Positions 1 to 8,077 of a stretch of 64,000 nt of DNA are shown here, in pieces. Under the pieces are notes generated by a model, which worked only from the letters and a program-made list of their open reading frames with translations, did no database searches and was not told the DNA's origin. Both the position numbers and the translations under genes were made by a program. Location of the stretch: NCBI GenBank assembly GCA_025057975.1, contig JANWUV010000016.1, forward strand, positions 1 through 64,000, read 5' to 3'. This stretch comes from Chloracidobacterium sp. GTDB taxonomy: Bacteria; Acidobacteriota; Blastocatellia; Chloracidobacteriales; Chloracidobacteriaceae. Every line of letters starts with the position of its first letter. Position 1 is the stretch's first letter.

Positions 1-105
1 CCGAATGGACTTTTCACGCACCGCCGCCCGATTGACGGCGTCCAGCGGCAACGCAACTTCAATCAACTTTTTGCGTGGTCTTGTGGGGGTCAGGTTGTCG
101 CTCAT
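1..105 (-). CDS. DUF1156-domain DNA methylase, N-terminal 35 codons only (runs off left edge)
   Basis: Reading leftwards from the ATG at 105, 35 codons stay open to the window edge. The peptide contains KKLIEVALPLDAVN followed by REKSIR, which I recognise as the N-terminal signature of DUF1156 proteins (COG1743, adenine-specific DNA methylases with a Zn-ribbon). In this family the next residues are normally a histidine/proline/tryptophan-rich stretch leading into the methylase fold, but these lie outside the window. Full-length members are about 900-1000 residues, so almost all of the gene is missing here. The family is often found beside DUF499 ATPases and helicases in anti-phage islands. 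A weak AAGAAAG ribosome-binding site precedes the start. The family call rests on this short motif only. Confidence 0.75.
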   Translation of the reverse strand, partial: MSDNLTPTRPRKKLIEVALPLDAVNRAAVREKSIR

Positions 106-166
106 CTGGTGACTTTCTTGGTTAGGGGAAATCCACGCGCTAGATATGGACGGCGCGTTCGGCGAG

Positions 167-391
167 TCACCGCTGGCGCAGGTCAAGGAGTTCGGGCGTC
201 CAGGCTTCCGGCGCGGTCTCGGCAATCTGTCGCGTCAGGGCATAGGCGCTCCGCCGATAGGCGTCAACTTTGACCGCATAAGCGGATGACGCGCGCTTCA
301 GCGTCAGACTGAAGGACTTTCGAGAATGATGGAGCGATACCTGCTCTGGGAGCAGCGTCAAGAAGTGTTTGGCGTGCGGGGGCCACCGCAC
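167..391 (-). CDS. small hypothetical protein or gene remnant, 74 aa
   Basis: This open frame has a GTG start inside the palindrome at 368-397 and ends 61 bases before the DUF1156 start. Its second half (about residues 35-74) has codon use like the neighbouring genes and a plausible protein composition, ending in WTPELLDLRQR. The first half is less convincing. I do not recognise a family. It could be a small gene co-transcribed with the DUF1156 gene, or the 3' remnant of a longer gene broken near the palindrome. No good ribosome-binding site is visible. Confidence 0.35.
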   Translation of the reverse strand: MRWPPHAKHFLTLLPEQVSLHHSRKSFSLTLKRASSAYAVKVDAYRRSAYALTRQIAETAPEAWTPELLDLRQR

Positions 392-397
392 GCCAAA
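368..397. repeat. 12-bp perfect palindrome downstream of the SPFH gene
   Basis: TTTGGCGTGCGG (368-379) and CCGCACGCCAAA (386-397) are exact inverted repeats around a six-base loop. It lies 40-70 bases after the SPFH stop and could end that leftward transcript, but no T-run follows on the minus strand. The right arm with four loop bases (382-397) recurs exactly at 37971-37986, and a shorter hairpin with the same TTTGGCGTG arm is at 37893-37915. A dispersed intergenic repeat is therefore as likely as a terminator. Confidence 0.6.
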
Positions 398-436
398 TCG
401 AGGGGCTGCGTCGCTACGTCGTCTTCAGGGAGCGCG

Positions 437-1507
<1,071 letters not shown>

Positions 1508-1563
1508 AGTCAACTCCTTCAGCGGGATGGGCGTTGGGGTTGCGTGAGAGACCTCGATTCACG

Positions 1564-6657: not shown

Positions 6658-8077
6658 CCAGTCGGTCAATCCCAACCCCTTCTCCGGCGGTCGGCGGCAT
6701 CCCATAGGCGAGCGCCCGAATGAAGTCTTCATCCAGCGGCATCGCTTCGTCGTCGCCGCCGGCCCGCGCCGCCAGTTGTTGCTCAAAGCGCCGTCGTTGT
6801 TCGTCAGGGTCGTTGAGTTCGGAAAAGGCGTTGGCGCACTCCATCCCGCCGATAAAGAGTTCAAAGCGGTCAACAAAGTTTGGGTCGTCGTCGGCATGCC
6901 GCGCCAGCGGACTGAGTTCGGTCGGAAAGCGTGTGATGAAGGTTGGTTGAATCAGGTTCGGTTCGGCGACGTGCTCGAAGAGTTCGCCCAGACGTTTGCC
7001 GTAGCCGATGTGCGGCGCGACCGGCAACTTGAGACGCTCAAGGGCGCGGTTGACGCCCGCCAAATCGTTCAACTCGGCGACGGTTGGGGGATTGTCGGCC
7101 GGCCAGTACGTTACGATGGCTTCCTGCATCGTCATCCGTCGCCACGGACGGGCGAAGGAAATGGTCGCTTCACCGTAAGTGATAGTCTCGGTTTCACAAG
7201 TTTGCGCGACAACTTCCGTGAAAAGCTCTTCAGTCAGCGTCATGAGGTCTTCGTACGTCGCGTAGGCCTCGTAGAATTCCAGCATGGTGAACTCCGGGTT
7301 GTGGCGCGTCGAAAGCCCTTCGTTGCGGAAGTTGCGGTTGATTTCATAGACCTTTTCAAAGCCGCCGACGATAAGCCGCTTGAGGTACAGCTCTGGCGCA
7401 ATGCGCGCGTAAAGCGGCATGTCGAGCGCGTTGTGGTGCGTCACAAACGGCCGCGCCGTTGCGCCCGACGCGATAGGGTGCAACATGGGCGTTTCGACTT
7501 CGAGGTAGCCGCGCGCGTCGAAGAATCGCCGCACGGCCTGGATGATTTTCGCCCGCTTGACGAACACCGCCCGTACGTCGCGGTTGGCAATCAGATCGGC
7601 GTAGCGCCGCCGGTAGCGCAACTCGATGTCGTGCAACCCGTAGTGCTTGTCTGGCGGCGGAATAATGGCTTTGGTCAGGAAGGTCAGTTGCTCGGTATGC
7701 ACCGACAGTTCGCCGGTTCTCGTGCGAAAGAGCCTACCGGCGACGCCGATGAAGTCGCCCAAATCCAACCGTTTGAAAAGCAGCCATTCGTTCTCTGGCA
7801 GGTCGTTTTTCCGTAGGTAGGCCTGAAGCGTCGCTGCGCCGTCGGTGAAGCGAATAAAAGCGGCCTTGCCCATGACATTGACCGCCTGAATGCGGCCGGC
7901 GACCCGAACAGTAACGGCGGCGGCGTCCAACGCATCGGCGGTATGCGCGCCGTAAATCGCCACAATGTCGGCGATGCTGTGCGTCCGGCGGTAGCCGGCC
8001 GGATAAGCCGGAAACCCAAGCGCCATAATGTCGGCTAAGTTCCGGCGGCGTTGCCGAGTGTATTCATTTTCTTCCAT
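6554..8077 (-). CDS. lysS: lysyl-tRNA synthetase, class II
   Basis: At 507 residues this is the normal length for LysS. An N-terminal OB-fold anticodon-binding domain (about 55-150) is followed by the class II catalytic core. Motif 2 is visible as [20 protein letters not shown] and motif 3 as GIDRLVML near the C-terminus. The enzyme charges tRNA-Lys with lysine in the cytoplasm. The C-terminal 35 codons lie antisense to the end of the tetR gene. The start ATG at 8077 opens [20 protein letters not shown], a usual LysS beginning, though no strong ribosome-binding site precedes it. Confidence 0.95.

Follow-up and report, generated by a model that had tools for sequence, protein, structure and literature searches.

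The 64,000-nucleotide stretch of Chloracidobacterium sp. DNA analysed here (the window; G000:C16:1-64000) opens inside an hmaB methylase gene of the Hma (helicase-methylase-ATPase) defence system, and sequence comparison leads us to propose, at somewhat less than an even chance, that this piece is the 5' end of a second hmaB in a genome with an Hma operon, the extra copy serving as a spare or silent cassette for specificity. Base 1 of the window is the end of contig C16 (77,694 bases), so that this contig offers no further sequence to the left, and the features at this edge are as follows.

Positions 1 to 77, unstranded: a 77-base word identical to G000:C1:976-1052, the site of the other hmaB copy; C16 begins exactly with this word.
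Positions 1 to 105, minus strand: the 5' end of hmaB (DUF1156 methylase), 35 codons, running off the contig (translation; PADLOC HmaB, E 4.1e-9; Pfam DUF1156, 14.6 bits; contig end).
Positions 106 to 436, minus strand: the spacer from the stop of the SPFH gene to the start of hmaB, with a 30-base inverted repeat at 368-397 (a self-match on the other strand).
Positions 437 to 1513, minus strand: an SPFH/Band 7 gene upstream of the window's hmaB, where hmaA would be expected (Pfam Band_7, E 1.7e-34).

The window piece has its own start codon and leader, and its minus-strand translation over positions 1-105 is MSDNLTPTRPRKKLIEVALPLDAVNRAAVREKSIR. Residues 7-35 align with the first positions of the PADLOC HmaB models (E 4.1e-9 and 7.2e-9), and the Pfam DUF1156 match is weak (14.6 bits against a cut-off of 24, E 0.038) because only 18 profile positions are present in the 35 residues; the copy of this N-terminus on contig C1 scores above the cut-off. 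A tblastn search of the piece against plasmids returned 60 records at E up to 10, the best 20 of which show 54-80% identity (best E 2e-5), 18 of these 20 matches lying under a gene annotated as DUF1156. Given the HmaB-model matches, the DUF1156-annotated plasmid matches and the high-scoring second copy on C1, the piece is, as judged from sequence, no chance open reading frame but the start of a genuine gene or a relic of one. The first-pass annotation had read a DUF1156 signature in these 35 codons and assigned the gene to a methylase family of phage defence; both statements hold, the second at family level, with the gene now placed as HmaB of the Hma system. Its expectation of an undescribed defence locus has to be given up, the system being described as Hma (PMC8565338) and, under the name of a DUF499-centred Type-1 BREX-related (BR) system, in PMC12839542.

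Directly upstream of the window's hmaB there is no hmaA; SPFH and NfeD genes stand there instead. The ten nearest larger genes encode these two proteins, an outer-membrane efflux protein, an MFS transporter, a TetR regulator, a class II tRNA synthetase, a large outer-membrane barrel protein, a ribulose-phosphate epimerase, a YfiO-like protein and an M14 peptidase, and none of the ten has a PADLOC defence match. Flanking genes that were all housekeeping had been named in the first-pass annotation as grounds for abandoning a defence locus; the visible side does consist of ordinary genes, and the defence partners lie on other contigs. In five of six genus relatives (G001, G002, G004, G005 and G006, not G003) the gene behind the SPFH gene is another, conserved one, which we take by eye to be amidase-like, and hmaB therefore does not stand at an old place in G000. 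Within window positions 1-700 a scan for sigma-70-like promoters gave no promoter-like site, and a terminator scan gave one terminator-like match on the plus strand, a count near chance expectation.

Further hmaB pieces lie on three other contigs of the same genome. Contig C1 holds the first 356 hmaB residues, open at the contig end (DUF1156 102.2 bits, HmaB 563.5 bits), with hmaA directly upstream (1076 and 1068), which encodes a 1209-residue SNF2 helicase with a NOV_C domain (HmaA, 1621 bits). Contig C17 holds the last hmaB residues, followed directly by hmaC, whose product is a DUF499 ATPase bearing a HEPN_Swt1 domain at its N-terminus (HmaC, 1145 bits), so that profile matches on C1 and C17 place HmaA, HmaB and HmaC all in G000. 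The first-pass annotation had noted that a DUF499 ATPase and helicases often accompany this family in other genomes and that most of the system, if present, would lie outside the window; the genome does hold both partners, on C1 and C17. Contig C3 carries a second hmaB 3' part spanning about 900 bases. Its open reading frame has 386 codons, about 255 of them matching HmaB, and the HmaB match then passes into another frame, a break that may be a sequencing error; this 3' part is followed by a YhgA-like remnant (Transposase_31; L058:12480-12686) and then a convergent TonB-receptor gene. On contig C10 of the same genome we also observed DISARM-like genes (DrmE_C, DrmA and DrmB) followed by a transposase-like gene (L060:1333-12658; G000:C10:161333-172658) and, after the latter at the contig end, a second HEPN-DUF499 ATPase.

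The way in which these contigs break points to a duplicated gene. C16 and C1 have a word of exactly 77 bases in common, as do C17 and C3, and in each pair one contig starts with the word and its partner runs through it. Two equal overlaps of 77 bases would be expected if a de Bruijn assembler had been run at k=77 and had stopped at a repeat. The two shared words at the breaks therefore give two hmaB starts and two hmaB ends, and the single k-mer-like break length suggests two similar hmaB genes in G000. Since G001 and G005 match window positions 2-72 at only 76%, the two G000 copies are close to each other. Outside the words they differ: their 5' leaders are unlike, and by eye five positions disagree within roughly 60 bases upstream of the stop. 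No visible G000 contig contains residues about 545-846 of either copy (as numbered in the G006 protein), and hence G000 shows no difference in the presumed target-recognition domain (TRD). Contigs C47-C86, the 40 smallest (501-640 bases), read N throughout. A TRD difference would fit as the cause of the breaks, since the shortest contig is 501 bases and anything smaller may have been discarded.

The pairing of starts with ends was weighed against gene order in other genomes. We fetched 80 hmaB loci from named genomes; in 32 the flank was too short to judge, and in 45 of the other 48 the order is hmaA-hmaB-hmaC, the remaining three comprising one without hmaA nearby and two without both neighbours. 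This order favours C1-C17 as the operon and leaves C16-C3 as the lone copy, and we infer that hmaA, hmaB and hmaC work as one operon on C1-C17, and that C16-C3 is an additional hmaB on its own, its frame broken close to the 3' end. Synteny was tried as a guide for joining the contigs and left the matter undecided, the four hmaB flanks falling in rearranged or unconserved surroundings in G001, G002, G003, G005 and G006.

What a second hmaB could offer is suggested by the variability of the protein. About 95 residues between the AEAVG.YL and DPPYYDN motifs form the longest hypervariable stretch of HmaB in 65 sequences, with mean entropies of 1.84-2.37 bits in the three 30-residue windows across it; the other high-entropy stretches in the same 65 sequences are 421-450 (2.09), 481-510 (1.62) and the last 8 residues (2.58), the rest reaching at most 1.35. 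An insert of HmaB is described as the TRD in PMC12839542, and the segment before the DPPY motif is probably this TRD, within that insert. The DPPY motif is present in whole HmaB relatives, the methylase core lying beyond the 35 codons visible in the window, and it fits the amino (N6) methylase of PMC12839542, while HmaB is called an m5C methylase in PMC8565338. Within the window's own genus, G001 and G005 have hmaB DNA that is 93% and 86% identical on the two flanks of about 300 non-aligning bases, across which protein identity falls to 38-39%; segment replacement therefore occurs in this genus too. From this and from the paired copies of another Acidobacteriota genus described below, hmaB appears to diversify its specificity via recombination. 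The hmaB genes of G005 (L027:10070-13681) and G001 (L028:9637-13257) also have some 200 extra residues in frame immediately ahead of the presumed TRD; this insert matches Y1_Tnp (IS200-like; Pfam run on the G005 protein only), and short direct repeats occur at several places within both genes.

The clearest view of paired hmaB genes came from another Acidobacteriota genus, g86. An HmaB-model search of 396 Acidobacteriota genomes gave a match in 87, other DUF1156 families included. Of 21 g86 genomes searched, 11 have a match at E 1e-20 or better. With matches at 40% identity or less taken as other DUF1156 families (G402, L227, among them), hmaB at no less than 63% identity is found in five of the 21 (G138, G146, G398, G406 and G408), and all five have two copies (L212:5666-14468 in G146, L220-L222 in G408, L223 in G406, and L208-L211 with L224 in G138 and G398). 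The copies are seen inverted in three of the five, and a tyrosine recombinase pair accompanies them in four (G146, G406, G408 and G398). The two G146 copies point towards each other and enclose two tyrosine recombinase genes, of which the second is fused to a nucleotidyltransferase domain, as well as a HepT-like gene; the copies are 74% identical overall, differ at 3 of 100 bases before the variable segment and have 77 exact bases in common after it. A 5,846-base contig of G408 holds both hmaB 5' halves facing each other together with the same two recombinases (93% identical), its two ends being identical over 99 bases; the two 3'-half contigs begin with another identical 99 bases that overlap the first by 17, giving a perfect inverted repeat of 181 bases. 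We did not accept this break as proof that both orientations occur, as the perfect 181-base repeat alone explains it. In G406 an incomplete inverted hmaB copy has the recombinase pair on its outer side, and in G398 the pair is on the 5'-half contig. The two 3'-half contigs of G138 stop at one and the same point in hmaB, as do those of G398, with 44 and 26 bases in common; the stretch between the G138 hmaB ends is not visible, and the mutual orientation of the copies is not seen in either genome.

Some of the segment types carried by these pairs occur at opposite positions in different genomes. Ten hmaB copies in the five g86 genomes hold six types, four of which occur twice at 86-96% identity; all other segment pairs are 27-46% identical, against 67-88% in all pairs over the 250 residues from the DPPY motif on. 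Of these four, two belong to the copy adjoining hmaC-hmaA in one genome and to the far copy in another (G138/G398 and G408/G138), and two are found on one side only. In the far copies of G146, G406 and G408 the match breaks off at residues 807-815, as it might in silent cassettes; truncation is not universal, as the match extends to residues 990 and 964 in those of G138 and G398. The G146 recombinases gave no tblastn match in the window, C1:1-12000, C3:262001-275646 or C17:1-14000, and no relatives of the two g86 recombinases were found in the loci of G001, G005 and G006. None of the 80 named loci, which are the best of 558 confirmed matches and not a random draw, has a second long hmaB within its flank, and nearby pairs are therefore uncommon outside g86.

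These observations can be assembled into a mechanism. G000 has two hmaB starts, on C1 behind hmaA and on C16 behind the SPFH gene, and two ends, on C17 before hmaC and on C3 before the YhgA-like remnant. As judged from the relatives, hmaB copies would exchange the hypervariable segment before DPPY through near-identical flanking blocks, and a swapped segment would change the DNA site that the expressed HmaB marks as self; with a second hmaB carrying another TRD at hand, one crossover or conversion could change the mark. Where inverted copies accompany a recombinase pair, the repeat and the swapped types suggest that inversion would link the 5' half of each copy to the 3' half of the other. The broken 3' end of the C3 copy may be likened to the early-stopping far copies of G146, G406 and G408, and by analogy the window copy could act as a TRD donor. 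We advance only tentatively the broader proposal that Hma has its own specificity switch, in which a duplicated hmaB swaps its TRD through inversion with a dedicated pair of tyrosine recombinases in some lineages and, elsewhere, through homologous exchange with a copy that is dispersed and partly broken, the window's hmaB being a donor of this dispersed kind.

Against this explanation, short hmaB 5' relics elsewhere show that a gene start may stand alone, without the rest of the gene. In 70 of the 80 named loci we could locate an hmaA end ahead of hmaB (itself a relic in a few, such as L129, L166 and L192), with a gap of 3 to 6,550 bases that exceeds 1,000 bases in 50 of the 70. A scan with 60-residue pieces of each locus's own hma proteins (75 HmaB, 67 HmaA and 56 HmaC; 84 loci) found extra hma fragments in 8 of the 84, from the junction-facing gene ends, the one piece from further inside a gene being the continuation of the L192 relic. 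These and a further relic are listed here.

L129:4995-5355 and 7117-7260: hmaB start relics (two starts), one relic start being followed at once by an hmaA end.
L130:7002-7152 (two starts), L135:7083-7219, L141:6174-6256 and L192:2688-2916: hmaB start relics.
L148:12859-12906: hmaB end relic.
L166:6781-6894: hmaA end relic.
L184:13805-13870: hmaC start relic.
L219:4747-4836: relic of an hma gene end beside embedded cargo.

Compared as DNA with the whole gene, the main hmaB relics show 72-97% identity across 83-156 bases. A fixed insertion site as the cause of the 5' relics was set aside, since they end variously, about 82 to 158 bases from the start codon. The relic start plus hmaA end in L129 would be expected if a circular or tandem unit of hmaA end, cargo and hmaB start had been taken up by one crossover. 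The cargo includes Schlafen AlbA_2/HATPase, DUF4062/HATPase, HEC-01B-, AbiLi- and TmtA-like proteins. Embedding within Hma (Hma-embedded candidates, HEC) is already known from PMC12111858, PMC11411939 and PMC12988326, and we claim no novelty for the gene-end relics beside cargo. Lone pieces were also observed: hmaB starts at L200:3458-3553 (G193) and at L201:10146-10205 and L202:9744-9803 (G397), with no whole hmaB found in these genomes, and an hmaB end at L203:9259-9504 (G349), with no whole hmaB listed there.

The window piece could accordingly be nothing but a short remnant of an hmaB 5' end, left behind when an embedded cargo module was inserted or transferred, with unrelated DNA beyond it, a reading that we regard as unlikely. 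Relics beside cargo in L129, L130, L135, L141 and L192 and in G152, where one lies directly behind hmaA, make it conceivable, as do the hmaB-start fragments without a whole hmaB in G193 and, twice, in G397, and the relics come from the same codon block as the window piece. It leaves aside, however, the second hmaB 3' end of about 900 bases on C3, and the relics between hma genes differ by 3.5-28% from the full gene, whereas the 77 bases here are identical. Of comparably low probability is an ordinary second methylase, with two whole and independent hmaB genes (or with C1-C3 and C16-C17 as the true joins), both expressed and without exchange. The window copy's own start, its leader unlike that of C1, and the two Hma loci of G276, where whole hmaA and hmaB stand on C44 and again on C54 (hmaB cut there), would be in keeping with this, but the exact 77-base words within otherwise differing ends would suggest ongoing exchange or a recent copy, and the C3 end has a frame break. 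Least probable is a mixture or assembly fault that brought the second start and end in from another strain or species in the sample: the contamination estimate is 2.1% and many related assemblies are metagenome bins, but C1, C3, C16 and C17 all have long stretches like the same genus relatives (for G003, 71-86% on C16, C3 and C17 and 74-79% on C1), and at a completeness of 99.91% there is no sign of a whole second genome.

The preferred reading, a spare second hmaB beside an operon, can be set against known systems. Hma is widespread, with 26 phyla in a 2021 survey (PMC8565338), and HmaB is proposed to mark self DNA while HmaA and HmaC act on unmarked DNA, a discrimination of self from foreign that is largely proposed rather than tested (PMC12839542). 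G000 resembles Hma/Type-1 BR in having a DUF1156-start HmaB, an SNF2 HmaA and a DUF499 HmaC with an N-terminal HEPN domain; it differs in that the window's hmaB has no adjoining hmaA and appears to be an extra copy. The nearest known parallel is BREX pglX with a site-specific integrase (PMC7513527), where two methylase copies and a recombinase recall the g86 loci, although g86 has HmaB/DUF1156 and a DUF499 system, and no recombinase is seen at the window copy. In Type I hsdS inversion of Streptococcus pneumoniae (PMC4948785), recognition segments are likewise swapped between an expressed and another copy via inverted repeats, whereas in HmaB the presumed TRD lies within the methylase itself. 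The HEC (PMC12111858, PMC11411939, PMC12988326) are similar in that many fetched loci have cargo between hma genes; unlike them, the window copy has no cargo in view, and hma gene-end relics are noted beside cargo in the fetched loci. An hmaB pair with recombinases, or TRD exchange in Hma, was not found in the open-access literature without preprints, a narrow basis, and the available text of PMC12839542 mentions no recombinase, inversion, phase variation or shuffling, "phase-variable" appearing once, in a reference title.

If HmaB does swap its specificity domain by recombination, a lineage could change its methylation mark and outpace phages that carry the old one, and its epigenome would change along with the HmaB mark. 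The inverted hmaB pairs with recombinases can be put to the test directly, and the segment that is swapped indicates which residues may choose the target. For the reading of genomes, contig ends that fall inside hmaB may serve as a flag for hmaB pairs.
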